64,000 nucleotides of DNA from Serratia quinivorans (GTDB lineage Bacteria > Pseudomonadota > Gammaproteobacteria > Enterobacterales > Enterobacteriaceae): positions 248,001-312,000 of the forward strand of contig UGYN01000002.1 in the NCBI GenBank assembly GCA_900457075.1. The letters run 5' to 3'. The position numbers were made by a program, and so were the translations under genes. Positions 1 to 18,247 of this stretch are shown piece by piece. Positions within the stretch are counted from its first letter, which is position 1; each line of letters opens with the position of its first letter. The notes under the pieces were generated by a model, which made no database searches, was not told the DNA's origin, and saw only the letters and a program-made list of their open reading frames with translations.

Positions 1-1830
1 CCACGCCATCCGCACGGGCATTGTCCTTCGACACGGTCACCGTTTCTATCTCCGCCGACGGGTCATTGCCACCGCCTTCCGTAAAGTTGACCGTCACGCT
101 ATCCGTGCTCTCATTGATGCTCGCCGTCACCTGACATGCCCCTGCCGTCAGATTGCTCAGCGACACGATGGCCTTGCCATACTCATCCGTCAGCACCGGG
201 TTGGCCTGAATGACCGCACCGTTATCTGCCTCAAAGTGTACGCTCTGGTTCGCCAGCAACCGGTTATCGCCATCCACCACCTCGGCCGCCACCGTGTTGA
301 CGGCCACGCCATCCGCCACCGCATTGTTCATCTCAATATAAACCCCGGCTATCACCGCATCCGGGTTGGTGCTGCCCCCTTCAATAAAGGTGACATCGGT
401 ACTGCGGGCACTCACATTGATGACTGCCGTCACCTTCACGGTACCCTCGCTGGTGCTGGTCAGCGTCGTCGTCGCCTTGCCGCCCGCATCTGTCAGTACC
501 GGGCTGACTATCTCCGCATCGTTTGTTGCCAGGAACGTCACGCTCTGGTTTGCCAGCAGAACATGATTGCTGTCAGCCACTTCAGCCATGACCCGGTTGG
601 TCGCCTGCCCGTCAGCGGCGGCCTGGTCATCCAGCGTGCGCAAGGCGATAACCTCGGCTGTCGGGTCATTGCCCGTCGCCTCGGTGAATATCACGTTCAC
701 CGACGCTTTACTGCTGTTTATCAGCGCGGTCACGATGGAGATGCCCGGCGTCAGGCTGGTCAGCGTCGCCACCGCCTTCCCATACTCGTCCGTGACGACC
801 AGCTCATCAATCTCCGCCCCGTTGGTGGCCGTAAAATTAACCCCCTGTCCGGCCAGCAACCGGCCATCGCCACTCACCACCTCCGCGACCACCTCATTGG
901 TGTGGCGTCCATCCGCCACGGCGGTATTTTTAGACACCGTCAACGCACTGATATACGCCGTCGGGTCATTCGAGCCGTCCTCAACAAACTGCACTTCCGT
1001 CTCCAGGCTGGAGTCGTTAATACTGGCGGTGACGGTTACCTTGCCGGGCGTCAGGCTGGTCAGGGTTACCGTGGTTTTCCCCGACGCATCGGTGAGCCCC
1101 GGGCTGACAATCTCGGCGCCATTATCCGCCGTGAACGTCACGCGCTGGTTCGCCAGCAGTTTTCCGCTTTCCCCCGCCACCTCTGCAGTGACCTTGTTCA
1201 TGGCCGTGCCGTCAGCCACGGCGAAATTGTCGGTGGTCTGCAGCAGGACGAGAAACGCCGTCGGGTCATTGCCGTCGCTTTCATCAAACACCACCGCCAC
1301 GTCGCTGCTGCTGGCGTTTATGGTGGCCGTCACGGTGACCTCCCCCGCGTCGGTGCTGGTCAGCGTCGCGATAGCCCTGCCCAGCTCATCGGTCAGGACC
1401 GGGCTCTGGATGAGGGCCCCATTATCCGCCTCAAACGTCACGCTTTGGTTCACCAGCAGCCCGCCGCTCCCGTTGGTGACTTCAGCTGTCACTTCGTTGG
1501 TTGACGTGCCATCGGCCTGGGCATTGTTCTGGGAGACGTACACATCCTCAATCACCGCATTCGGGTTGTTATCATCGACAGGGGCAAAGGTTGAATCCAC
1601 CGTCATCTGGCTTTTATTGATGCTGGCGGTGACCGTGTAAACCCCCGCCGTCGTACTGGTCAGGGTCGCAACGGCAATTCCCTGCGCGTTACTTTCTGCC
1701 TGGCCTTGAATACTGGCGCCCTCTTCAATTTCAAAGGTCACCGTCTGACCGGCCAGAGGCACCGTATCACCGTCATTCACCTGAGCAACAACGGAATTGG
1801 TCGTCTGGCCGTCAGCGGGGGAGTTATCCT
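1..1830 (-). repeat. Tandem 300-bp coding repeats (six full units plus a partial)
   Basis: The Ig-like gene consists of degenerate direct repeats with exact 300-bp spacing. The segment encoding the ADG-T-N motif recurs at about 1797, 1497, 1197, 897, 597 and 297 with no change in length. Sequence varies between units but length does not, which points to selection on domain length and expansion by unequal recombination. Confidence 0.85.
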
Positions 1831-1882
1831 CTGTAATCAGCAATGAGTGAATGGTGGCGTTAGGATTATTAATCGTAGGCAT
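1..1882 (-). CDS. Giant Ig-like (Big_1/invasin-type) repeat protein, N-terminal part
   Basis: An open frame runs without a stop from ATG 1882 off the left edge of the window (627 codons visible). AGGAG lies 7 nt before the ATG. The product is a chain of bacterial Ig-like domains of the invasin/intimin type: each unit has an ADG-T-N motif, a VTF strand motif, a TD-G-A-TLTS segment and a VTA-I strand. The repeat period is exactly 300 bp: equivalent positions occur at about 1797, 1497, 1197, 897, 597 and 297. There is no signal peptide or membrane segment at the start, so a secreted adhesin using the Sec route is not supported; a virion fibre or decoration protein, or a protein secreted by a C-terminal signal, fits better. 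The function cannot be settled without the C-terminus. Confidence 0.85.
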   Translation of the reverse strand, partial: MPTINNPNATIHSLLITEDNSPADGQTTNSVVAQVNDGDTVPLAGQTVTFEIEEGASIQGQAESNAQGIAVATLTSTTAGVYTVTASINKSQMTVDSTFAPVDDNNPNAVIEDVYVSQNNAQADGTSTNEVTAEVTNGSGGLLVNQSVTFEADNGALIQSPVLTDELGRAIATLTSTDAGEVTVTATINASSSDVAVVFDESDGNDPTAFLVLLQTTDNFAVADGTAMNKVTAEVAGESGKLLANQRVTFTADNGAEIVSPGLTDASGKTTVTLTSLTPGKVTVTASINDSSLETEVQFVEDGSNDPTAYISALTVSKNTAVADGRHTNEVVAEVVSGDGRLLAGQGVNFTATNGAEIDELVVTDEYGKAVATLTSLTPGISIVTALINSSKASVNVIFTEATGNDPTAEVIALRTLDDQAAADGQATNRVMAEVADSNHVLLANQSVTFLATNDAEIVSPVLTDAGGKATTTLTSTSEGTVKVTAVINVSARSTDVTFIEGGSTNPDAVIAGVYIEMNNAVADGVAVNTVAAEVVDGDNRLLANQSVHFEADNGAVIQANPVLTDEYGKAIVSLSNLTAGACQVTASINESTDSVTVNFTEGGGNDPSAEIETVTVSKDNARADGV

Positions 1883-2418
1883 AGTCGCACTCCTGACATA
1901 TTGTTTTATTCGACACGTGATAAAAACCAGCAATAATGCTAATGATGGTCAACGCAGTAAATAAAACGTAGCTCACCCCCCCTATTTGGCAACACTATTC
2001 AGCCGAAAAACAAAAAAAACAACACAAGACAAAACAAAAGCATTAGAAACATCACCCATATGCCCTCAAGTGTTATTTGAAAAGTAATAAAAAACACATA
2101 AACATGTATCAAAAATAGCTTTATCACCAACCATTTTGTTTTAAATATATTAAGTAAAACTCAGGTGAGTAATAAATCATTATGAACACAAAAACCGCTG
2201 AGGGCAGATCAAAATTCCGGACTAGAATGACACGTTCCTAACCATAGAAAATACAGTCCTTAAAGGTAGACGTGTGTTCCAATCAAATACGCAGCTCTGT
2301 TGTAACAACAATCGCCGGCTCAGTGATCAGATGACAAAAGGCACCATCCCTGGTAGGTACAGAAATGTCTCACAACCCCCTTAAAATGGGTAGAAATATG
2401 AACAACAATCATGAAGGT
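1883..2418. other. AT-rich gap between the Ig-repeat gene and the 218-residue gene
   Basis: This 536-bp stretch is AT-rich and has no convincing gene on either strand. It probably carries the promoter of the minus-strand Ig-repeat gene and the 3' region of the minus-strand gene at 2419. I see no clear terminator hairpin or repeat. Confidence 0.5.
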
Positions 2419-3075
2419 TCACTCCATGACGAGATATACCTGCAAATTGCTCATATACACATTCGCACTGTCGCCGAAAGTTTTACCACAACTCCACACA
2501 GGGTTAGTTTTCAACCCATCATAGGTTTTCAGGTATATCCTTGAACTCCCATTTCCAAAAATAACCGGTTCTCCGTTTAAAACGATTTCAAGCCATCCTA
2601 ATGTCTTGTTCGAAGATAGATGCACTGTCATCTGAAATGCGTTAGTGCTCCCTGGTACGATATCGATAAATGCCGGGATAGGAGGATCCATGACATGAGA
2701 AAGAACATAATAAGACGCCCCCCCATGCTCATGTTCAAGATAAAACAACCCTTCCTCGAAAACATCGACATTAAATGATTCGCCTCGCCATGAAAAAACT
2801 GTAAATCGCTCAGTCGTCACTTCAATAGGGTCGGTAAGTGTTGTTACAATCTTATACGTATTTCCTTCCTGCCAAAAATACCGTTCACCATCAATTACAA
2901 TACCTTCAGTATATGGCCCGTTCGTTGAGCCCATCAAGAAATTGAAATCCCACGTAACAATCTGCTGCTCGTCTATAAAGCCAGAAACAGAGTTCCCAGC
3001 ATAAGCAGAAACATTATGGTACACGTTCTCCGGAACTGTATCTGAATTACCAGTCCATAAAATCTTCTCAGCCAT
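2419..3075 (-). CDS. Hypothetical protein, 218 residues, possibly a beta-jelly-roll fold
   Basis: A complete frame from ATG 3075 with GGAGG placed 4 nt upstream. No signal peptide and no membrane segment. The sequence is rich in aromatic residues and alternating hydrophobic strands (for example TWDFNFLMG, RFTVFSWRGESF, FLYLEHEHGG-like segments), which suggests an all-beta, lectin- or lyase-like sandwich; this is a guess from composition, not a recognised family. It lies just past the Q-like gene and a strong hairpin, and is co-directional with the Ig-repeat gene, so it may be late-expressed cargo or a virion-tip protein. Confidence 0.6.
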   Translation of the reverse strand: MAEKILWTGNSDTVPENVYHNVSAYAGNSVSGFIDEQQIVTWDFNFLMGSTNGPYTEGIVIDGERYFWQEGNTYKIVTTLTDPIEVTTERFTVFSWRGESFNVDVFEEGLFYLEHEHGGASYYVLSHVMDPPIPAFIDIVPGSTNAFQMTVHLSSNKTLGWLEIVLNGEPVIFGNGSSRIYLKTYDGLKTNPVWSCGKTFGDSANVYMSNLQVYLVME

Positions 3076-3549
3076 TACGCCTCCGTAGATTACTGTTCAC
3101 ACTTCGGGCTATTAGCTTCTAGTTATGACTTATTTCAGAAATATAATTGCGACAATCATCACTATTTTGTTCACACATACAATCAGAAGCGAAATTTTGA
3201 GTCCCAGAAATGAGAAAGCCCAGGCGGATGCCAAGGCTTGTAACAGGTCGTCCCCGAACGTAATACCACATCGAAGGGCGCACTTAACGACTCCCCACCA
3301 AGGGATTAATAGTGCATATATGAACTAAATGCGCCCTTCTGCTGTGTCGTTGATGGCTCCCAATTTCTGCCCAGAATTTATCACTCAACTTATGCGATAA
3401 GATGAGCCAAAAACGATAAGGCCCGCATAAAGCGGGCCTTATCGTTTTAATATTTGTGTCTGTTTGTGCCCTCGAGCTCGCTTCTTAGCACTATCGTTAG
3501 CTACAGCTCTGCCAAATATAAATTAATTATCTACTTTTTGTGTCCGTTT
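3076..3549. other. Gap between the Q-like gene and the 218-residue gene
   Basis: Apart from the hairpin at 3410-3448 I find no supported gene. A 67-codon plus-strand frame at 3125 has a hydrophobic start but no ribosome binding site and points against its neighbours. In a lambdoid layout this is where the late promoter and Q-utilisation site would be expected. Confidence 0.4.
3410..3448. terminator. Strong hairpin terminator, active in either direction
   Basis: A perfect 17-bp inverted repeat (arms 3410-3426 and 3432-3448) with a 5-nt loop. The outer arms are A-rich on one side and T-rich on the other, so it can act as an intrinsic terminator on both strands. It separates the Q-like gene from the two leftmost genes. 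A Q-modified polymerase could read through it. Confidence 0.8.
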
Positions 3550-5238: not shown

Positions 5239-5391
5239 TTACCTGGTTTCGTAAGCCATGTAAGCCACTATCTCCGCCCTGCCGCTTCGGAAGCTAACTT
5301 CACAGAGATTTCCCTTGTTGAGCAGCAAAGCCCCTAGCAGAGCTATGCTGACAACAATTAGCGCCATCAGCGCCTGTTTTTGTGGCTCCGT
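5239..5391 (-). CDS. Hok/Gef-family membrane toxin, with ACG at the expected start
   Basis: The frame encodes 50 residues in the Hok pattern: short polar start, one membrane segment (ALMALIVVSIALLGALLL), then the diagnostic LCEV-FRSGRAEI-A-MAYE tail, close to HokD/RelF. Hok proteins kill by damaging the inner membrane when the mRNA is translated. At the position where ATG is expected the codon is ACG (5391-5389), preceded by AAGGAG with 9 nt spacing. No ATG, GTG or TTG occurs upstream in frame before a stop; the first in-frame ATG (5367) would give 42 residues, still with the whole membrane segment. The gene may therefore be silenced, use ACG, or start at 5367 by coupling to the overlapping leader frame. 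Confidence 0.75.
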   Translation of the reverse strand, partial: TEPQKQALMALIVVSIALLGALLLNKGNLCEVSFRSGRAEIVAYMAYETR

Positions 5392-5450
5392 AGCCTTCTT
5401 CTCCTTAACCTTTCGGCCGGTAAGAGACTAATCTTCAGTTGTTGAAGCAT
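5367..5450 (-). CDS. Mok-like overlapping leader frame of the Hok-type gene
   Basis: A 27-codon frame, shifted relative to the toxin frame, spans the toxin ribosome binding site and ends with TGA sharing two bases with an in-frame toxin ATG (TGATG at 5369-5365). This is the arrangement of mok and hok, where translation of the leader is needed for toxin translation. Its own ribosome binding site is poor and the peptide is very basic with no family match, as expected of a leader. Assignment rests on geometry. Confidence 0.45.
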   Translation of the reverse strand: MLQQLKISLLPAERLRRRRLRSHKNRR

Positions 5451-5575
5451 CGGATAGGCCTAAGGTTGATTGGAAATTACTCGAGGCTTTTCTCTATCTG
5501 CCTGTTGCAAATACTCAAGACAGATAGTCTCAAGCACCCGCAGCAATACTAATCAATCCGATATTTTATCGCAAA

Positions 5576-6306: not shown

Positions 6307-6769
6307 GGGACAAGGCCTGATCAAACATCTTGTGCAATTGGCAGTAATGCAGCTCTGTGGGATGGAAATGCCACAGCGTCGTGTCCGCTGTCGTCTCTTT
6401 ATCATCCGAGCGCGAGTTAATATCGCTAAGCTCCAGAAATCGCTCGCTGGCGCTTATCAGTAAAAAACGAGCCTTACTGCCCTGGCCAGTCTTCACCATC
6501 TCGACACTTGGCGATCTGAGCATCGCGTGCAAACGCACTAACATGGTTGCTCTGCTGACCGTATTTTCTGGATGCCGCTCATCCACCAGCAGATAAATCT
6601 CCGCTGAACTCAAATTTTTACCCTGGATCAGCGCCGCCAATTGCCTGCTTGTAATTTTCATGTTTCCCTCACTTCCCCCCCGAAAGTGCCTTACGTTTCG
6701 CCGATAATTCTCCCTCGTAAAATTCATCCAAATACCGTCATCCATGCTCAATTCTCGTTGCTGAATCAT
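6287..6769 (-). CDS. Hypothetical phage protein downstream of the replication gene
   Basis: ATG 6769 overlaps the stop of the replication gene by 4 nt (ATGA), which favours this start (160 residues); an internal ATG at 6661 has a better GAGG site and would give 124 residues, so two products are possible. The part after that internal Met (KITSRQLAALIQGKNLSSAEIYLLVDERHPENTVSRATMLVRL) reads like a small helix-turn-helix domain. In this position lambdoid phages carry a helicase loader or replication accessory protein, but no such family can be recognised. Confidence 0.6.
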   Translation of the reverse strand: MIQQRELSMDDGIWMNFTRENYRRNVRHFRGGSEGNMKITSRQLAALIQGKNLSSAEIYLLVDERHPENTVSRATMLVRLHAMLRSPSVEMVKTGQGSKARFLLISASERFLELSDINSRSDDKETTADTTLWHFHPTELHYCQLHKMFDQALSRVQDRD

Positions 6770-8160
6770 GCTTCCACCCTCGCTGACCGGGCATACGAAC
6801 GAGTGAGAATTGTCCGCCACTCTCGACGCGCTGATGGCTCATCTCCAGGTTTGTTGAACCCGTTTTTTTGAACGTGCTGCCATGCCAGGTTCTCTGCCGG
6901 GTTTGCCGGTGGCAAACCTTCCACGAACAGCCGATCAAACGCATCATCAAAATCAATCGCCAGCACCTCACCCGTTGGCGGGCTTTGCCGCTGTTGCTCC
7001 ACCGCAGCGACCCGCTCTGCCCGCTGGGTGCGTTTTTTATGCCAGGCATTGGCTGCAACCAGATATGCTCCGAAACTGTCAGCAGCGAACAGCCGGTTTG
7101 GTGCCAGCATGTGAGCAAGCCTCGGGTTGTTCAGCAGTTGATCCGTGCGATGCTCAGCGACAAGTTCCAGCTCAGCCTGGGAGTAACCATCGGCCAGCCG
7201 TTCAGTGATTTCTCGCAGGGTATCGGCACGCTTCGGCGTTCTGGCGTTGATTTTTGAATTCAGAAAATCCAATACCTGGCCAGCCAACGGTTCAGCCTTG
7301 CAGCTCCCAATGACCAAAACACCGGAGTCCAGGTAATCACCGCGAGAATTAACATCCCGCAGCACAACCAGCCCGCCACCGATGGAGTTCAGCTTGGTGA
7401 TTGATTTTCGGCGAGGGCACTTCCAGTCCAACACGATTCCGCAGCGGTGGCCGGCGTCATCGGTGACGAGAATATCAACCTTCCCACCTCGGCCATCGCC
7501 TCGGTCGTCCACTGGGTACTCCCGTCGGCAGGTCAGCCCATGATGGCTCAGAAACTCAACGACTTGGTCATGCAGCGTTGCTGCATCGGTGACCGGGAAT
7601 TGGTTTCGCAGTAAGCCAGCCAAAAAATCCCTAAACCACTCCCCCCCGCTGTCGAGTGCGCCAGGAAGGGTTTGGGTAGGTTTTTCTTTTGAAGTACTCT
7701 CTGTAGTGATCTCTGTATGAAGAACGGCTCGTTTTGACCTCTTGCAGCGTGTCATTTTGACCTTTTGCATCGGTTCAGATTGACCCGTTGCATCAGTGCA
7801 ATTTGACCCGTTGCATGGGGTCATTTTGACCTCATCAGTCAGGACGCTGTGTTCGTAGTTAATTGCGTAATAATTTGTCTTGTCACGAGGATCGCTCGAT
7901 AGCTTCTTGACATAGATAACTCCCAGGGCTTTCAACGACGCAAATGCACGCTTAATCGACGATTCAGAGAGGAATGGGAATTGCTCCATCCACTCAGCGA
8001 TCGTGTTGTATACCCAGCAACGACCATCATGTTCAATGCCTGATGTCGTCTCTGTGGCCCAGTAGTGGATCTGCTGAAGCAGCATTGCCTCATTGAGGCC
8101 TACGCGCATCGCCAGCTCAGAAATCACCACTATGGGACGTGAGGTAAGGAGCAAACTCAC
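6766..8160 (-). CDS. Phage replication initiator with iterons and a nuclease-like segment
   Basis: 464 residues from GTG 8160, GGGAGG 7 nt upstream. Residues 1-105 form a winged-helix replication-initiator domain (RPIVVISELAMRVGLNEAMLLQQIHYW type). The linker (about 110-150) is encoded by five 23-bp direct repeats, the probable origin, as in lambda O. Residues 214-250 contain VDILV followed by GIVLDWKC, the beta-hairpin layout of PD-(D/E)XK nucleases (D229, D245, K247, with E214 upstream). The C-terminal 200 residues are helical and end in a basic tail. The protein should bind the iterons and open the origin. The nuclease reading is an inference from motif spacing. Confidence 0.75.
   Translation of the reverse strand: MSLLLTSRPIVVISELAMRVGLNEAMLLQQIHYWATETTSGIEHDGRCWVYNTIAEWMEQFPFLSESSIKRAFASLKALGVIYVKKLSSDPRDKTNYYAINYEHSVLTDEVKMTPCNGSNCTDATGQSEPMQKVKMTRCKRSKRAVLHTEITTESTSKEKPTQTLPGALDSGGEWFRDFLAGLLRNQFPVTDAATLHDQVVEFLSHHGLTCRREYPVDDRGDGRGGKVDILVTDDAGHRCGIVLDWKCPRRKSITKLNSIGGGLVVLRDVNSRGDYLDSGVLVIGSCKAEPLAGQVLDFLNSKINARTPKRADTLREITERLADGYSQAELELVAEHRTDQLLNNPRLAHMLAPNRLFAADSFGAYLVAANAWHKKRTQRAERVAAVEQQRQSPPTGEVLAIDFDDAFDRLFVEGLPPANPAENLAWQHVQKNGFNKPGDEPSARREWRTILTRSYARSARVEA
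7732..7846. repeat. Five 23-bp iterons, probable phage replication origin
   Basis: The core TTGACC recurs with its G at 7736, 7759, 7782, 7805 and 7828, a spacing of exactly 23 bp each time. Units 1-4 also share a TTGCA/TTGCAT centre and a TCA/GCA end; the fifth is partial. Unit 4 is an imperfect palindrome with TGACCC and GGGTCA arms. As 23 is not a multiple of three, each unit falls in a different reading frame, so the repeats are kept for DNA function and not for protein sequence. Confidence 0.85.
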
Positions 8161-8162
8161 GA

Positions 8163-9014
8163 TTAGCCCTCCCGTTTCTTGTGGCCAAGAGAGAGCGATT
8201 TCAGATCGTCAGGATGGATCACCAGATAACCCCGCCGCTCTGTCAGCTCGATGAAAGTGTCCAGGCTGGCAATAACCTCGCCCTTCTGTACCGGCCGTGA
8301 GTCGACTATCGCCCCGTTCTCCAGGGTGATGAGTAATTCAATGCGTTCAGGAAATGCAGACACCCCCGCAGAGAGTTTTGCCTCCATCATGTTGAAGGCG
8401 TTGATGTAGTGCTCTTTGAAAATGGCGGCGCGCTTGCCAGTAAAACCCATGGCCAGAAAGGCAAAACCGTCTCGGGTGATTTCGTATGCGGGGCGTTTTT
8501 CGCCTTTTGCGTCGGTATATTCAACCGACGCAAAATTGCGGGCGTTAAATTCCGGTGAGAATTCGAGAGTTTCTATTTTGCGGATAACGTCAGCATGACG
8601 TTTGGTGAAGTATTCCGCGATGGCAATCGAGGTTGTGACGGCGCGACCGTCGACGAGGGTAACTTCAGGTTGAGTTTGGGTAAGGGTAGTAGCCATAGTG
8701 GCAGCCTCTATTGTGAGTTTTGATAACTCACCACAAGCCGCTGCTAAACAACTGGTGGTGACCTGAACAGGGTTAGCAGACCGGTCACAATAGAACCCGG
8801 CGAGCCTTTCGGCTCCCCTGCCCAGGCCACCATAATTCGGATATACCTGCGCGCCGCACACAAAAAAACCGCTGGCGCGGTTGTGCGCTATTGTGAGTTC
8901 CGAGCTGCTAAACTCGGCAGCCCATTGAGGGACTGCCATGGAACTATAGCGCCCGAAATCCAAAGAATCAACATTTGGCATACGGTCGGTGGTATCCATC
9001 AACTTGATGCTCAT
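8163..9014 (-). CDS. Icd/Ash-like leader fused in frame to Rha-family antirepressor, copy 1
   Basis: The frame opens at ATG 9014, overlapping the stop of copy 2 by 4 nt, and runs 283 codons. Codons 1-106 pass through the structured RNA leader and encode an Icd/Ash-like peptide (IAHNRASGFF). From ATG 8696, which has its own GAGG site, the frame encodes the antirepressor proper: a phage Rha domain (VTTSIAIAEYFTKRHADVIRKI to AFLAMGFTGKRAAIFKEHYINAFN) plus a conserved C-terminal domain ending YLVIHPDDLKSLSLGH. Rha proteins interfere with phage establishment or repressor function. The variable part of this copy is VEYTDAKGEKRPAYE. It lies 2 nt before the replication gene in the same transcript. 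Confidence 0.75.
   Translation of the reverse strand: MSIKLMDTTDRMPNVDSLDFGRYSSMAVPQWAAEFSSSELTIAHNRASGFFVCGAQVYPNYGGLGRGAERLAGFYCDRSANPVQVTTSCLAAACGELSKLTIEAATMATTLTQTQPEVTLVDGRAVTTSIAIAEYFTKRHADVIRKIETLEFSPEFNARNFASVEYTDAKGEKRPAYEITRDGFAFLAMGFTGKRAAIFKEHYINAFNMMEAKLSAGVSAFPERIELLITLENGAIVDSRPVQKGEVIASLDTFIELTERRGYLVIHPDDLKSLSLGHKKREG
8708..8912 (-). ncRNA. C4/CI-like structured antisense RNA leader, copy 1
   Basis: In minus-strand order: TTTAGCAG (8912-8905) and TCACAATAG (8896-8888); terminator hairpin (8882-8862); hairpin GAGCC-GAAA-GGCTC (8815-8802); element A CTATTGTGA (8793-8785); element B CTGCTAA (8777-8771 region); element C TCACCAC (8761-8755); second B' TTTAGCAG (8748-8741); C' GTGGTGA (8734-8728); second A' TCACAATAG (8716-8708) touching the GAGG of the antirepressor. 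A-B can pair with either flanking B'-A' set, the logic of P1 c4 RNA and P4 CI RNA. Confidence 0.7.
8862..8882 (-). terminator. Intrinsic terminator inside the leader, copy 1
   Basis: On the minus strand AACCGC-GCCA-GCGGTT is followed by a run of T. It lies between the first antisense element pair and the C4-like segment and would stop transcription before the antirepressor. The same bases encode the HNRASGFF peptide motif. Confidence 0.75.
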
Positions 9015-9862
9015 GACTTCCCCCGTTTATTGTGGCCAAGAGAAAGTGATTTCAGATCGTCAGGATGGATCACCAGATAACCCCGCCGCTCTGTCAGCTC
9101 GATGAAAGTGTCCAGGCTGGCAATAACCTCGCCCTTCTGTACCGGCCGTGAGTCGACTATCGCCCCGTTCTCCAGGGTGATGAGTAATTCAATGCGTTCA
9201 GGAAATGCAGGCGCACCTGCAGAGAGTTTTGCCTCCATCACGTTGAAGGCGTTGATGTAGTGCTCTTTGAAAATGGCGGCGCGCTTGCCAGTAAAACCCA
9301 TGGCCAGAAAGGCAAAACCGTCTCGGGTGATTTGGTAGGCGTTATAGGTGTTGCCACGATGTTCAAATTGAACCCGCGAAAAGTTGCGGGTTGAAAATTC
9401 AGCAGAACATTCCAATTTTTCAATTTTCTGAACAACGTGGTGATGCTGTTTACCGAAATATTCAGCAACAGTCGTCGACGTAGTAACAGCATGGCCGTCG
9501 ACGATGGTGATTTCAGGTTGAGTTTGGGTAGGGATAGTAGCCATGGTGGCAGCCTCTTGCGATAAGTTGGTTAACTCACCACCGGAGACGCCAATCACAC
9601 TGGTGGTGAGACGTACAGGGTTGGCGTAACCGGTCGCAAGAGAACCCGGCGCATCTTTCGATGCCCCTGCACGCCCCACCATTGATAGGTGTAGCAATGC
9701 TTTGCGCACAAAAAAACCGCTGGCGCGGTTGTGCGCTCTCACGAATACCGGGACGCCAATCCCGGCAGCGGATTTTGCCGCTGCTCGGGAACTATAGCGC
9801 CCGAAATCCAAAGAATCAACATTTGGCATACGGTCGGTGGTATCCATCAACTTGATGCTCAT
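9011..9862 (-). CDS. Icd/Ash-like leader fused in frame to Rha-family antirepressor, copy 2
   Basis: 283 codons from ATG 9862, overlapping copy 3 by 4 nt; independent start ATG 9544 with GAGG upstream gives the Rha antirepressor alone. Its C-terminal ~110 residues are almost identical to the other copies, whereas the middle is the most divergent of the four (VAEYFGKQHHHVVQKIEKL, then VQFEHRGNTYNAYQ in place of the YTD-G type segment). The N-terminal leader peptide carries VRAHNRASGFFV. This copy belongs to the same polycistronic early transcript and is exactly 848 bp from copy 1. Confidence 0.75.
   Translation of the reverse strand: MSIKLMDTTDRMPNVDSLDFGRYSSRAAAKSAAGIGVPVFVRAHNRASGFFVRKALLHLSMVGRAGASKDAPGSLATGYANPVRLTTSVIGVSGGELTNLSQEAATMATIPTQTQPEITIVDGHAVTTSTTVAEYFGKQHHHVVQKIEKLECSAEFSTRNFSRVQFEHRGNTYNAYQITRDGFAFLAMGFTGKRAAIFKEHYINAFNVMEAKLSAGAPAFPERIELLITLENGAIVDSRPVQKGEVIASLDTFIELTERRGYLVIHPDDLKSLSLGHNKRGKS
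9554..9760 (-). ncRNA. C4/CI-like structured antisense RNA leader, copy 2
   Basis: Minus-strand elements: upstream B' (9759-9753) and A' (9744-9736); terminator; hairpin GCATC-GAAA-GATGC (9664-9651); A CTCTTGCGA (9642-9634); B ACGCCAA (9627-9621); second B' TTGGCGT (9594-9588); second A' TCGCAAGAG (9562-9554) beside the GAGG. A/A' and B/B' differ in sequence from copy 1 but remain complementary here; the upstream A' (TCGTGAGAG) pairs with A through two G-U wobbles. Confidence 0.7.
9711..9731 (-). terminator. Intrinsic terminator inside the leader, copy 2
   Basis: Same hairpin and T run as in copy 1 (AACCGC-GCCA-GCGGTT, then seven T on the minus strand), at the same place between the antisense elements. 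Confidence 0.75.
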
Positions 9863-10719
9863 GACTTCCCCCGTTTATTGTGGCCAAGAGAAAGTGATTT
9901 CAGATCGTCAGGATGGATCACCAGATAACCCCGCCGCTCTGTCAGCTCGATGAAAGTGTCCAGGCTGGCAATAACCTCGCCCTTCTGTACCGGCCGTGAG
10001 TCGACTATCGCCCCGTTCTCCAGGGTGATGAGTAATTCAATGCGTTCAGGAAATGCAGGCACCCCCGCAGAGAGTTTTTCCTCCATCATGTTGAAGGCGT
10101 TGATGTAGTGCTCTTTGAAAATGGCGGCGCGCTTGCCAGTAAAACCCATGGCCAGAAAGGCAAAACCGTCTCGGGTGATTTCGTAACAGGGAAGTGTGCG
10201 ACCGGTGGGGTCGGTGTAATTACTGGGCGAAAAATTTCGCTCAGTGAACTCTGGGGAGCACTCGAGTTGGGAGATTTTGGTCAGAATATCTTTGTGAGGT
10301 TTGGTGAAATAAGCCGCGACAGCCAGTGACGTGGTCACCGCGCGGCCCTCTACGAGCAGAACTTCAGGTTGAGTCTGGGTAGGGGTAGTAGCCATGATGG
10401 CAGCCTCTATGTCGATAGTTATGTAACTACCACCCACAGATGCGAAGCCATGATTGGTGGTAGCCCAGACGGGATTCGCATTACCGGTCGACATAGAACC
10501 CGGCGCTTCCGAGGAAGCTCCCGCCTGAGCCACCATTGACAGGTGCACAAAGGCTGCGCGCATAAAAAAACCGCTTAAAGCGCGGTTATGCGCTATGTCG
10601 AATTCCGGGATGCGAAGCCCGGCAGCGGATTTTGCCGCTGCACAGGGACTATAGCGCCCGAAATCCAAAGAATCAACATTTGGCATACGGTCGGTGGTAT
10701 CCATCAACTTGATGCTCAT
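9859..10719 (-). CDS. Icd/Ash-like leader fused in frame to Rha-family antirepressor, copy 3
   Basis: 286 codons from ATG 10719, overlapping copy 4 by 4 nt; independent start ATG 10395 with GAGG. The antirepressor has the Rha domain with the variable segment AYFTKPHKDILTKISQLECSPEF and SNYTDPTGRTLPCYE, and the shared C-terminal domain. The leader peptide reads IAHNRALSGFF, one residue longer than in copies 1 and 2 because the terminator loop is longer. It shares most of its Rha domain with copy 4 and its C-terminus with all copies, suggesting exchange between copies. Confidence 0.75.
   Translation of the reverse strand: MSIKLMDTTDRMPNVDSLDFGRYSPCAAAKSAAGLRIPEFDIAHNRALSGFFMRAAFVHLSMVAQAGASSEAPGSMSTGNANPVWATTNHGFASVGGSYITIDIEAAIMATTPTQTQPEVLLVEGRAVTTSLAVAAYFTKPHKDILTKISQLECSPEFTERNFSPSNYTDPTGRTLPCYEITRDGFAFLAMGFTGKRAAIFKEHYINAFNMMEEKLSAGVPAFPERIELLITLENGAIVDSRPVQKGEVIASLDTFIELTERRGYLVIHPDDLKSLSLGHNKRGKS
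10407..10618 (-). ncRNA. C4/CI-like structured antisense RNA leader, copy 3
   Basis: Minus-strand elements: upstream B' (10616-10610) and A' TCGACATAG (10601-10593); terminator; hairpin GCTTC-CTCG-GAAGC (10518-10505); A CTATGTCGA (10496-10488); B ATGCGAA (10481-10475); second B' TTCGCAT (10446-10440); second A' TCGACATAG (10415-10407) beside the GAGG. Both upstream and downstream A' are perfect complements of A. All elements differ from the other three copies. Confidence 0.7.
10564..10587 (-). terminator. Intrinsic terminator inside the leader, copy 3
   Basis: Stem AACCGC/GCGGTT is kept although the loop is changed and longer (7 nt), followed by seven T on the minus strand. Conservation of stem with loop change supports RNA function. 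Confidence 0.75.
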
Positions 10720-11252
10720 GACTTCCCCCGTTTATTGTGGCCAAGAGAAAGTGATTTCAGATCGTCAGGATGGATCACCAGATAACCCCGCCGCTCTGTC
10801 AGCTCGATGAAAGTGTCCAGGCTGGCAATAACCTCGCCCTTCTGTACCGGCCGTGAGTCGACTATCGCCCCGTTCTCCAGGGTGATGAGTAATTCAATGC
10901 GTTCAGGAAATGCAGGCGCACCCGCAGAGAGTTTTGCCTCCATCACGTTGAAGGCGTTGATGTAGTGCTCTTTGAAAATGGCGGCGCGCTTGCCAGTAAA
11001 GCCCATGGCCAGAAAGGCAAAACCGTCTCGGGTGATTTCGTAACAGGGAAGTGTGCGACCGGTGGAGTCGGCGTATTCACTGACCTTAAAATTAAGGTCA
11101 GTGAACTCAGGAGAGCATTCCAGGGTCTGGATTTTTTGGATGATGTTATCGTGACGCTTGGAAAAGTATGCCGCGACAGCCAGTGACGTAGTCACCGCGC
11201 GGCCCTCTACGAGCAGAACTTCAGGTTGAGTCTGAGTAGGGGTAGTAGCCAT
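10716..11252 (-). CDS. Rha-family antirepressor, copy 4 (promoter-proximal)
   Basis: I start it at ATG 11252, which has GAGG 8-9 nt upstream as in the other copies (178 residues). The frame stays open far upstream without an equivalent of the MSIK start; an internal ATG at 11390 in the leader is an alternative. Rha domain (AYFSKRHDNIIQKIQTLECSPEF, YADSTGRTLPCYE) plus the common C-terminal domain ending LGHNKRGKS. It is the first of the four in the leftward transcript. The C-terminal part is nearly identical to copies 2 and 3. Confidence 0.8.
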   Translation of the reverse strand: MATTPTQTQPEVLLVEGRAVTTSLAVAAYFSKRHDNIIQKIQTLECSPEFTDLNFKVSEYADSTGRTLPCYEITRDGFAFLAMGFTGKRAAIFKEHYINAFNVMEAKLSAGAPAFPERIELLITLENGAIVDSRPVQKGEVIASLDTFIELTERRGYLVIHPDDLKSLSLGHNKRGKS

Positions 11253-11261
11253 GATGGCAGC

Positions 11262-11471
11262 CTCTGATTGATTATTTGCATAATCACCACAAGCCGCTGC
11301 TAAACAGCTGGTGGTGAACTGTGCAGGGTTAGCAGACCGGTCAATCAGAGAACCCGGCGCACCTTTCGGTGCCCCCACACAGCCCACCATAATTTGGATG
11401 TGCGTAGTCCTCAGGCGCAAAAAAAGCGCACATAGCGCCATTGGACGCTGATTGAATTCCAGGCTGCTAAA
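11262..11471 (-). ncRNA. C4/CI-like structured antisense RNA leader, copy 4
   Basis: Minus-strand elements: upstream B' (11470-11464) and A' TCAATCAG (11455-11448); weak terminator; hairpin GCACC-GAAA-GGTGC (11372-11359); A CTCTGATTGA (11350-11341); B CTGCTAA (11335-11329); second B' TTAGCAG (11303-11297); second A' TCAATCAGAG (11271-11262) beside the GAGG. B is shared with copy 1, A is not, so specificity differs by one element. Confidence 0.7.
11419..11438 (-). terminator. Terminator-like hairpin inside the leader, copy 4
   Basis: GCGC-TATGT-GCGC followed by seven T on the minus strand. The stem is shorter than in copies 1-3 and the primary sequence is different, but position and T run are the same. 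Confidence 0.55.
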
Positions 11472-11539
11472 CCCGGCAGCGGATTTTGCCGCTGCCAGTG
11501 CAGTGTAGCGCCCGGAACTCAGATGATCAACTGTATTTT

Positions 11540-11585
11540 GTTGTCCAATTTGACAACAGACAGTTGCGTTGTTATTGTTTACAAC
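11540..11585 (+). promoter_or_regulatory. tumE promoter with two matching operators
   Basis: TTGACA (11550-11555) and TATTGT (11573-11578) with a 17-bp spacer form a good sigma-70 promoter for the plus-strand tumE gene. Two sites of the form GTTGT-N8-ACAAC overlap it: 11540-11557 on the -35 and 11568-11585 on the -10. Identical geometry suggests a dimeric repressor, most likely TumA, binding both and shutting off the operon. Confidence 0.7.
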
Positions 11586-11606
11586 ATAACGAAGGAAGAC
11601 GAAGCA

Positions 11607-11894
11607 ATGCCATCCAGGCTTTATCGAAAGTTTAAGCGCCAGCTGAATGGCACAGATTACATCAGAGTCGTTATATGGGAGGTTGACCCCTCCGTTCTTG
11701 GTAGCGAGCATAAATTCAAGTACAGCTTTGCCTATGTCGCCAGCGGCGTCTGTGTGATGCGCTACGATAATGAACGGGGTAAGGGCGACCATAAACACAT
11801 CGGCGATCGGGAAATCAGCACTGACTTTGTCACGATAGAACAGCTGCTGGAAGATTTCATCAATGAAGTCATGGCCCTGCGAGAAGGAGAATGA
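11607..11894 (+). CDS. tumE: TumE-family (DUF6516) toxin
   Basis: 95 residues from ATG 11607, with GAAGG upstream; an ATG 28 codons earlier lacks a site and overlaps the promoter. The pattern RLYRKFKRQ, then VVIWEVDPSVLGSEHKFKYSFAYV, VCVMRYDNERGKGDHKHIGD, and the acidic LLEDFINEV end, is that of the TumE/DUF6516 toxins. The partner antitoxin gene follows after 1 nt. The pair is encoded against the direction of the early operon, as expected of a self-contained cassette. Biochemical activity of this family member is unknown to me. Confidence 0.75.
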   Translation: MPSRLYRKFKRQLNGTDYIRVVIWEVDPSVLGSEHKFKYSFAYVASGVCVMRYDNERGKGDHKHIGDREISTDFVTIEQLLEDFINEVMALREGE

Positions 11895-11895
11895 C

Positions 11896-12255
11896 ATGAA
11901 GACGGTAACCATTCGTGTTGAAACAATGAACGATTTTAAGGCGGATGTCATGTCCGCTTTTCGCGCCGCTGCTGATGGCGCAAAAGGAACGGAAGAAGAT
12001 GTGATCTCCTTCCCTGACTGGCAACTGCTGCACAAAACACTGTCACCAAACCGCATGGCCATACTGATGGCAATGACCGGTTCTGGGGAAATGACTATCC
12101 GTGAAATTGCTGCTCTTGTTGGTCGCGACGTTAAAGGCGTGCATACCGACGTTACCGCCCTTCTTGCCAGCGATATGCTGGAGCGCGGAGAACGTGGCAC
12201 TGTATTTCCGTATGACGCGATACACTTTGACTTCACCATTGGCAAAGCGGCCTGA
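11896..12255 (+). CDS. tumA: TumA-type antitoxin (winged-helix, HVO_A0114-like)
   Basis: 119 residues from ATG 11896, GGAG 8 nt upstream, one base past the toxin stop. Residues 1-45 likely bind the toxin; residues 50-110 (LSPNRMAILMAMTGSGEMTIREIAALVGRDVKGVHTDVTALLASDMLERGERG) form a winged helix of the MarR/HVO_A0114 kind. It should neutralise TumE and repress the operon through the paired GTTGT-N8-ACAAC sites. Toxin-first order is typical for this pair. Confidence 0.75.
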   Translation: MKTVTIRVETMNDFKADVMSAFRAAADGAKGTEEDVISFPDWQLLHKTLSPNRMAILMAMTGSGEMTIREIAALVGRDVKGVHTDVTALLASDMLERGERGTVFPYDAIHFDFTIGKAA

Positions 12256-17014: not shown

Positions 17015-18025
17015 ATGGCCAGAAAAAGAACCAAGTCTGCAGGGCTCAATCTCCCTACCCGCGTTTATCCGGGAAAATCACAATATGAATACCACCCCGC
17101 CTGTGGGGGCTCGATTTCTCTTTGTCCACTCAATGCTCCGCTTTCGCTCGTTTGGGCTCGATACGAAGCAGCATGTAGAGGCATTCAAGAGAAGGGTAAT
17201 CTTGCAGGACTTATTGCTGACTTTTTTGACTCGGCGGATTTTTTTCGCCTCGGCAAAGAAACCAAAAGCGATTACCGAAAATATTCAAAAAAGATAATCT
17301 CTGTTTTTGGAAAAATGGATCCTGATGCGCTAAAACCTCAACACATTCGAAAATACATGGATAAGCGAGGAGTGACAGCCCCCACCCAGGCAAACCGGGA
17401 AAAAACTTTTATGTCGCGCGTGTTCGGTTGGGCGTACGAGCGCGGGATAGTAAAAATGAACCCGTGCAAAGGAGTGAGGCAGTTTAAGGAAGAAGCTCGG
17501 GAACGCTATATAACTGATCGGGAATATGATGCACTGTATGTCGTGGCACCGCCGCTCGTACAAGCCGCCATGGAGGTAGCCTATCTATGCTGCGCACGAC
17601 AAGGCGATATTCTGGCACTGACGAAAGCGCAAATATTGCCAGAAGGAATTTTTATCCGGCAAGGTAAAACTGGAAAAAAACAAATCAAAGCTTGGACAGG
17701 GCGATTAAGGGCCGCCATAGAGTTAGCCGAGTCGCTACCGCTGAAAGATGGCATGATCAGTATGTTCGTTCTACACCAGCAGCACGGCCACCGCTATACC
17801 CGCGACGGATTTAATAGCCGCTGGCAGAAAGCCAAGGATAAAGCCGCTGAGCAATTCCCTGATATCAGTTTCGACTTCACCTTCCACGATCTCAAGGCCA
17901 AAGGCATCTCAGACCTCGAAGGCTCACTCATGGAAAAACAAGCCATCTCCGGCCATAAAACCATTACGCAAACGGCACGCTATGATCGTAAAACGAAGAT
18001 TGTACCGGTTGTCGGTGGTCAATGA
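17015..18025 (+). CDS. Tyrosine-type phage integrase
   Basis: 336 residues: an N-terminal arm-binding part, a core-binding domain (LAGLIADFFDSADFF, DYRKYSKKI) and the catalytic domain. Catalytic residues visible: Arg in CCARQGD, Lys in GKTGKK, HDLK (Lys in place of the usual Arg after the first His), His in SGHKT and the nucleophile Tyr in TARYDR. Start ATG 17015 lies 2 nt after the DUF4224 stop. It should recombine attP with attB in the 3' end of leuZ, 137 bp downstream. Confidence 0.9.
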   Translation: MARKRTKSAGLNLPTRVYPGKSQYEYHPACGGSISLCPLNAPLSLVWARYEAACRGIQEKGNLAGLIADFFDSADFFRLGKETKSDYRKYSKKIISVFGKMDPDALKPQHIRKYMDKRGVTAPTQANREKTFMSRVFGWAYERGIVKMNPCKGVRQFKEEARERYITDREYDALYVVAPPLVQAAMEVAYLCCARQGDILALTKAQILPEGIFIRQGKTGKKQIKAWTGRLRAAIELAESLPLKDGMISMFVLHQQHGHRYTRDGFNSRWQKAKDKAAEQFPDISFDFTFHDLKAKGISDLEGSLMEKQAISGHKTITQTARYDRKTKIVPVVGGQ

Positions 18026-18117: not shown

Positions 18118-18161
18118 ACGACATTACTACTTATTGCTTGTTATTCTTGAATTTATTTTCC

Positions 18162-18247
18162 TGGTACCCGGGGCGGGACTTGAACCCGCACAGCCATAAG
18201 CCGAGGGATTTTAAATCCCTTGTGTCTACCGATTTCACCACCCGGGC
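18162..18247 (-). tRNA. leuZ: tRNA-Leu (TAA)
   Basis: 86 nt with encoded CCA, GCCCGGG acceptor stem, long variable arm, anticodon TAA in GGATTTAAAATCC. Last of three tRNA genes, in the E. coli order glyW-cysT-leuZ downstream of pgsA. Its 3' end faces the integrase and is the presumed attachment site. Confidence 0.95.

Follow-up and report, generated by a model that had tools for sequence, protein, structure and literature searches.

Four tandem C4-type antisense RNA modules with distinct A elements precede Rha-family antirepressor genes in a Serratia quinivorans prophage

In the described cases of C4-type antisense immunity that were consulted there is one switch per phage. The P1 gene order has icd-ant at the position that rha occupies in the array reported here, which lies in a prophage of Serratia quinivorans. 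The window, i.e. the whole stretch of 64,000 nucleotides that was analyzed, corresponds to positions 248,001 to 312,000 of contig UGYN01000002.1 (G000:C2:248001-312000) in a source genome of 5.88 Mb. On its minus strand, from 8163 to 11530, four head-to-tail units of ~850 bp follow one another (M4 to M1 in the direction of transcription), and in each of them the order is promoter, IsrK-type leader with terminator, C4 antisense RNA, and Rha-family antirepressor gene. The units probably form stacked C4-type immunity switches with four specificities, each silencing its own antirepressor ahead of a replication gene.

The array resembles the P1/P7 C4 system in the C4 fold and Rfam family and in having targets on both sides of the RNA, one of them at the ribosome-binding site. 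In both, small differences in the specificity loop matter; passages of PMC5320573, citing Citron and Schuster, report that 4 nucleotides between P1 and P7 C4 stop cross-reaction. Unlike P1/P7, the Serratia locus has four tandem units and a leader frame in phase with rha. Here A' abuts the Shine-Dalgarno sequence, whereas the account given in PMC5320573 places a' pairing upstream and has b' cover the ribosome-binding site. The isrK-orf45-anrP locus of Gifsy-1, as far as it is described in passages of PMC4825925, likewise combines an IsrK-family leader with terminator and a downstream antirepressor-like gene in a lambdoid prophage. A stable RNA after IsrK, STnc1160, was likened to CI RNA by the authors of that paper. 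Control of anrP translation by IsrK and coupling of orf45 and anrP are experimental results there; IsrK supplied in trans raised anrP translation of the unmutated locus ~110- to 170-fold and was tied to prophage induction. Gifsy-1 has one module, whereas the Serratia array has four with different A elements. A further likeness is with the Group 1 C4-like small RNAs of Acinetobacter baumannii AB5075, where passages of PMC5320573 describe a single genome with numerous C4 paralogues that vary in a', and RNA-seq that suggests processing. The words "tandem" and "antirepressor" are absent from the main text of that paper.

The anatomy of the array is evident from its sequence. All four units gave matches above gathering score to the Rfam families C4 (RF01695; 77.1-86.1 bits against a cut-off of 45) and isrK (RF01394; 61.8-80.1 bits), and three of the four were above cut-off for c4-a1b1, the upstream a'/b' target. 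A sequence-only reading of the window had described four modules with this layout at 8163..11520 and with the A elements found in the loops listed in Table 1, and had proposed a covariance-model search with the C4 family; the sequence check, which places the modules on the minus strand, and the four matches above gathering score bear it out. The C4s have a common fold consisting of a 17-pair outer stem, a small hairpin, the A hairpin, and an unpaired B strand, with A located in a hairpin loop of 12-13 nucleotides in each centroid structure. The z-scores of the fold were between -4.34 and -5.35, and for each of the four RNAs 0 of 200 shuffled sequences folded as well. In a 16-sequence C4 alignment from this genome and others, compensatory two-sided changes with the pair kept were found at 11 of 27 pairs, in agreement with the earlier claim that the small hairpin stems covary. 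The C4 5' stem carries GGT, like the motif given in a passage of PMC5320573. A terminator-like stem is present in all four leaders, and TTGATT-17-TACACT was found by eye in 11 of 11 other array modules displayed. Pfam Phage_pRha (PF09669) was matched by all four proteins (E 2.7e-26 to 3.2e-29), and PHROG anti-repressor families by both Rha proteins scanned (M1 and M3).

The target beside the Shine-Dalgarno sequence, A'2, was the exact reverse complement of A in all four modules, as had been claimed, with longest runs of 10, 9, 10, and 10 nucleotides in M1 to M4. Duplex energies were computed on site-restricted targets; those obtained for B on wider targets were dropped, since fortuitous matches made them too favorable. 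The own A:A'2 pairs of M1 to M4 reached -13.0, -15.0, -15.0, and -14.8 kcal/mol, compared with -1.6 to -7.4 kcal/mol for the 12 cross pairs. The identification of C4/IsrK-type antisense modules before Rha-type genes is upheld, and the predicted pairing at the ribosome-binding site is strongly diagonal. For A:A'1, the own pairs were between -9.4 and -12.1 kcal/mol with exact runs of 9, 4, 9, and 8 nucleotides in M1 to M4. The claimed repetition of B'-A' upstream of the terminator thus holds for the layout, but A'1 is imperfect in M2, where the upstream site is weak, and is matched over 8 nucleotides in M4.

The same matching was found in a wider pool of 134 unique modules with 80 distinct A elements, which came from 283 matches of a pattern to viral contigs and to the genome containing the window. 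An exact own A:A'2 match of at least 8 nucleotides was present in 93 of the 134 modules. As a control for chance, A was compared with the leader of a module with a different A, and runs of at least 8 and at least 9 nucleotides occurred in 28 and 7 of 3953 trials. In a permutation test that excluded the array and used a single module for each distinct A (n = 90, 500 permutations), the mean own match at A'2 was 7.77 nucleotides compared with a permutation mean of 4.57 and maximum of 4.90; at A'1 it was 7.01 compared with 4.29. Matches of at least 8 nucleotides were found in 55 of the 90 modules at A'2 and in 42 at A'1. Judged from their sequences, near-identical leaders of other prophages have changed A, A'1, and A'2 together. 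The leaders of loci L089 and L093 are ~95% alike, and ten of their 15 differences fall within A, A'1, and A'2 (A +1 and +7 to +9; A'1 -100 to -98; A'2 +83 to +85). Those of L286 and L289, also ~95% alike, have 14 differences, and the changes at A +6 and +8 are matched at -136/-138 and +86/+84. Leader pairs with >85% identity and at least three A differences numbered 154, of which 25 were looked at. Exact copies of the four A elements were found in none of the 43 parsed C4s (51 fetched) of genus relatives and in no module of the viral and own-genome pool outside the array's prophage; the 7-nucleotide core CTATGTC of M3's A also occurs in L310, L311, and L314.

Single modules of this kind are known and common, and public genomes also contain tandem arrays with two or three of them. 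Within the genus, C4 was present in 26 of 30 genomes (60 matches) with no other tandem pair, and the window's junction occurred in none of the other 29 genomes. At the family level, with ten candidates scored per genome and ~150 matches listed per search, C4 was present in 200 of 392 genomes; in 24 C4-rich genomes there was one further close pair among the matches listed, 2 kb apart in genome G032. In a 4.3-Mb family genome (G132) with 20 C4 matches, two lay on opposite strands 4.4 kb apart. When genome contigs were scanned using an alignment of Rha, five distant loci came up, none of them an array. The uniqueness of the array that the genus and family searches suggested was overturned by viral and Escherichia coli arrays. 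The viral and own-genome pool contains an array of three modules (L041) and arrays of two in L077, L089, L092, L093, L116, L156, L167, L195, and L211, with further close C4 pairs in L106, L154, L212, and L237. Two further loci, L017 and L231, derive from the same IMG/VR contig, and 8858 bp of L017 match the window without a difference.

Junctions in E. coli were searched in 5426 complete genomes, with 81-base queries for the first two junction types. The first junction type was found in 87 genomes at >=80% cover, with 60 of 60 rows among the matches listed in one unbroken piece, the second in 11 genomes (11 of 11 unbroken), and the third in 12 genomes at full cover. For the third type, 553 of 565 records at >=80% were left uncounted; the eight listed had the rha end beside an unrelated gene. 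At least one genome appeared in two junction lists. These searches replaced an earlier count of 105 genomes, whose query could join pieces of one short module; another count of 120 genomes was discarded, as 58 of 60 listed rows consisted of two separate pieces and gave no proof of a junction. Six E. coli regions were opened, of which five had two C4s and one, in FDAARGOS_943, had three; strains MS7163, 89-3156, SCU-387, and FDAARGOS_943 are examples of two- or three-module prophage arrays. These arrays have the same kind of module, isrK-C4-rha, distinct A elements in the parsed pairs, and, in several, ATGA overlaps between genes; unlike the Serratia array, they comprise two or three modules with diverged phage sequences and other specificities. 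Four was the largest number of modules per array among the matches listed (pattern scan, and best 80 of 308 of a protein scan). The literature on C4, isrK, antirepressors, and P4 CI RNA, covered as titles, abstract openings, and passages, gave no description of tandem C4-antirepressor arrays. The four-fold stacked array therefore appears to be undescribed, and the statement of the sequence-only reading that no case with four in tandem had been described holds in the literature searched, although arrays of two and three units are present in public genomes.

Conservation along the array is uneven. In the aligned units the linkers of M1 to M3 are 100% identical over the first 50 columns, the leaders and rha 5' halves are mostly 38-85% identical, and the rha 3' halves are 92-100% identical except for the last codons of M1. 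An outside comparison was made with 321 fetched loci, the array itself excluded. The rha 3' blocks were 97-99% identical among siblings, whereas the best outside locus, L019, had ~70% identity to them across 289-291 bp; in other outside loci, identities of 80-84% were confined to shorter stretches. The M2 and M3 leaders were closest to outside phages (251 versus 133 and 318 versus 133 bits). The rha 5' halves of M1 and M2 were also closest to outside loci (126 versus 108 and 167 versus 88 bits), and those of M3 and M4 were closest to each other (238 versus 130 and 125 bits). The reading that all four leaders are closer to outside phages than to their siblings is upheld by the bit scores for M2 and M3 only. 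Because the leaders group M1 with M4, the rha 5' halves group M3 with M4, and the 3' halves group all four, the array is regarded as a mosaic, a pattern that fits duplication, recombination, and homogenized ends.

Several observations weigh against four independent immunity switches. As counts, the promoter and terminator scans were weak, with 4 promoters versus 2.5 in shuffled sequences and 7 terminators versus 3.8. At the upstream sites, M4's A bound M2's A'1 at -10.0 kcal/mol compared with -9.4 kcal/mol on its own A'1. M1 and M4 have a common B core with the same B energies on every target, and M2's B'1 was bound by M3's B at -17.1 and by its own B at -16.6 kcal/mol; because of this sharing and cross-binding, specificity is placed in A. 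The A elements of M1 and M2 differ at only 2 of 9 positions, and M1's A can still form 8 of the 9 pairs with M2's A'2 (7 Watson-Crick and 1 G-U). Against 75-nucleotide leaders from relatives in the genus, the M2 and M3 A loops reached -13.1 and -12.4 kcal/mol through unrelated matches, so that position and exactness, and not energy alone, carry the targeting claim. In the three-module array L041, two C4s carry one and the same A, and the C4 of the third module (L041:4150-4840) has CTATGTTGA while its own target, ATCACCAAAG, fits the TTTGGTGA type. A strict rule that each C4 matches its own target was rejected by this module, in which, from the sequence, RNA and target have come apart to give a natural uncoupled switch. 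The leaders of M1 and M4 were closest to each other (157 versus 140 and 120 bits), and the antirepressor role of the Rha proteins, by binding and inactivating a phage repressor, is presumed from homology. Finally, avoidance of equal A elements within arrays was not significant in a shuffle test of 13 E. coli-type arrays (hosts of viral contigs inferred from sequence), with one same-A pair compared with 2.44 expected (P = 0.25). In that test L117, L171, L195, and L231 were dropped as repeats of others; L106, L154, and L212, which did not parse into pairs, were left out, as were L237, which lacks an 8-nucleotide target match at the ribosome-binding side, and L333, whose third unit was unparsed and whose pair is that of L167. 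Random deals give one repeat or none in 25% of cases, and distinctness within arrays is therefore no evidence of selection.

Distinct specificity of the four modules is well supported by sequence, whereas their orthogonality is a prediction with partial support, the upstream sites being less selective. The earlier claim of four orthogonal switches stands for the A:A'2 diagonal and has to be qualified for the two-base distance between M1 and M2, the B shared by M1 and M4, and the upstream cross-pairing. Our confidence in stacked immunity switches was slightly lowered because the upstream sites cross-pair and an outside origin holds for two of four leaders. An improbable alternative is that the array is a neutral by-product of duplication and frequent recombination with diverse phages, in which only one module is functional and the other three are of no use to the phage. 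Random draws seldom share an A (P = 0.012 in the viral pool and 0.042 among genus relatives), so differing A elements can be accounted for without selection to differ, and the shuffle test and the lack of another four-unit array among the matches listed agree with this explanation. However, all four modules retain the terminator, the fold of C4, the exact match between A and A'2, and an open rha, and none looks decayed, and arrays also occur in the diverged E. coli prophages.

In each of the four modules, an open frame that is in phase with rha runs from the leader through C4; in M2 to M4 it scores Phage_ASH upstream of Phage_pRha, and in M1 Phage_pRha only. Unlike the case of P1 icd, no separate open reading frame of at least 80 amino acids was listed between C4 and rha in the four modules; shorter frames were not examined. 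Genes with the annotation "ash family protein" in E. coli records, L328 and L330 among them, extend across the isrK/C4 leader and continue into the frame of rha. In the E. coli prophages L328 and L333, a BRO-N domain gene lies directly upstream of the rha/ash units, after another Rha-family gene. At all three internal junctions of the array the rha stop overlaps the next ATG (ATGA), as it does in L041, L092, and L093, which suggests translational coupling between units. These overlaps, the open leader frame, and the promoter-like sites in the linkers are features that the sequence-only reading had not mentioned. With coupling, the copies could act as a single serial attenuator in which replication needs read-through of four terminators and the distinct A elements are incidental. 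This alternative is compatible with stacked immunity switches, but we consider it unlikely. In its favor are the overlaps, the open leader frame in all four modules, the position of the array before an O-like gene, and the orf45-anrP coupling described for Gifsy-1 in PMC4825925. Each of M1 to M3, however, has a promoter-like site, so that the last module could fire alone, and the in-phase open frame is only a tendency in the pools: it was found in 56 of 104 viral and own-genome modules, compared with 44 and 21 in the other frames, and in 20 of 27 genus-relative modules, compared with 6 and 0.

An O-like replication gene follows the array directly (Table 1). An 80-bp exact repeat at window positions 18141-18220, overlapping a tRNA gene, recurs at G000:C2:214225, which gives a prophage length of ~52 kb. 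The 135-amino acid repressor candidate encoded in the window had helix-turn-helix (HTH) domains only, with no peptidase domain among its Pfam matches. Such a repressor would fit induction through an antirepressor rather than cleavage, as described for Gifsy phages in passages of PMC3121763. According to the same source, the Gifsy-1 and Gifsy-3 antirepressors act on each other's repressors. The four Rha proteins of the array differ in their N-terminal halves. Both observations, as well as the induction-linked effect of IsrK in trans in Gifsy-1 (passages of PMC4825925), speak for a prophage-sensing bank, where the matching IsrK or target RNA of an incomer titrates one C4 and the released Rha disables the repressor, so that the resident is induced. 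This is again compatible with immunity switches, but we give it a low probability; no exactly matching A was present in the other modules searched.

As immunity switches, the array would consist of four C4-type modules in series at the head of the prophage replication operon. From its own promoter, each module would yield a short IsrK-type leader RNA, and read-through would give a precursor that releases C4 RNA. The A loop and B strand of C4 would pair with A' and B' at the rha ribosome-binding site and block the antirepressor, and C4 probably favors termination at the upstream A'/B' copy. With four different A elements, each module would respond chiefly to the RNA that it encodes. Tandem duplication probably enlarged the array, while leaders and rha 5' halves were reshuffled and partly replaced through recombination with other phages and linkers and rha 3' halves remained homogenized. 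In a lysogen, four RNAs would keep four antirepressors and the replication gene silent and make the cell immune to four specificities of phage. That the RNAs are expressed and processed, that they repress rha, that Rha acts as an antirepressor, and that four modules bring any benefit is inferred. A bank of four settings against different incoming phages, as the sequence-only reading had suggested, is a plausible proposal. More speculatively, and with considerable doubt, prophages may add, swap, and retune C4-antirepressor cassettes as a growing repertoire, so that a lysogen is immune to several phage classes and can also be induced by each of them separately; through the ATGA overlaps, a derepressed unit might then open the next. 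Tandem banks with separate specificities in diverged prophages and leaders in which three sites have switched together provide a natural set for testing the evolution of RNA immunity and its stacking by phages, and an RNA switch can go unnoticed behind the annotation "ash family" or "Rha".

Table 1. Positions in the window of the array modules and of neighboring prophage genes
Feature	Position	Strand	Evidence or remark
M4 promoter-like site TTGATC-17-TACACT	11502..11530	minus	by eye; below reach of consensus scan
M4 IsrK-type leader, B'1-A'1, terminator-like stem 11439-11425	11419..11495	minus	RF01394, 73 bits
M4 C4 RNA, A loop 11341-11353 (CTCTGATTGA)	11307..11394	minus	RF01695, 79.5 bits; fold z -4.34
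M4 A'2 target beside Shine-Dalgarno	11262..11271	minus	exact reverse complement of A
M4 Rha-family antirepressor gene	10716..11252	minus	PF09669 E 3.2e-29
M3 promoter-like site TTGATT-17-TATAGT	10648..10676	minus	consensus scan
M3 IsrK-type leader, terminator-like stem 10587-10569	10564..10641	minus	RF01394, 74.7 bits
M3 C4 RNA, A loop 10488-10499 (CTATGTCGA)	10453..10540	minus	RF01695, 77.1 bits; fold z -5.35
M3 A'2 target	10407..10415	minus	exact reverse complement of A
M3 Rha gene	9859..10395, open frame up to 10719	minus	PF09669 E 3.9e-28; Phage_ASH in frame upstream
M2 promoter-like site TTGATT-17-TATAGT	9791..9819	minus	consensus scan
M2 IsrK-type leader, terminator-like stem 9730-9715, A'1 imperfect	9710..9784	minus	RF01394, 80.1 bits
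M2 C4 RNA, A loop 9634-9645 (CTCTTGCGA)	9599..9686	minus	RF01695, 78.6 bits; fold z -5.14
M2 A'2 target	9554..9562	minus	exact reverse complement of A
M2 Rha gene	9011..9544, open frame to 9862	minus	PF09669 E 2.7e-26; Phage_ASH in frame upstream
M1 promoter-like site TTGATT-17-TATAGT	8943..8971	minus	consensus scan
M1 IsrK-type leader, terminator-like stem 8882-8867	8862..8936	minus	RF01394, 61.8 bits
M1 C4 RNA, A loop 8785-8796 (CTATTGTGA)	8751..8837	minus	RF01695, 86.1 bits; fold z -4.74
M1 A'2 target	8708..8716	minus	exact reverse complement of A
M1 Rha gene	8163..8696, open frame to 9014	minus	PF09669 E 6.1e-29; PHROG anti-repressor, Rha-like families
Q-like gene	4191-3550	minus	PHROG
O-like replication-initiation gene	6766..8160	minus	PHROG 428, 11233, 391 among others
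TumE/HVO_A0114 pair	11523-12255	plus, opposite to array	Pfam
CII-like gene	13487-13044	minus	PHROG
Repressor-like HTH protein, 135 aa	13765..14172	plus	Pfam HTH_3, HTH_31, HTH_19; PHROG transcriptional repressor families
Integrase gene	17015-18025		prophage marker

The source genome contains nine C4s, four of them in the array. A fifth isrK-C4 module is located outside the window on the opposite strand (G000:C2:214453-214636, L325:6453-6636) and begins 228 bp past the start of the prophage's left attachment repeat; pairing between its A and the leader downstream of it is poor (-4.9 kcal/mol). The TumE/HVO_A0114 toxin-antitoxin-like pair adjoins the first promoter of the array divergently. In addition, a sok antitoxin RNA was matched at window positions 5389-5539 on the minus strand (Rfam, 82.8 bits), perhaps marking a hok/sok-type locus in the same prophage.

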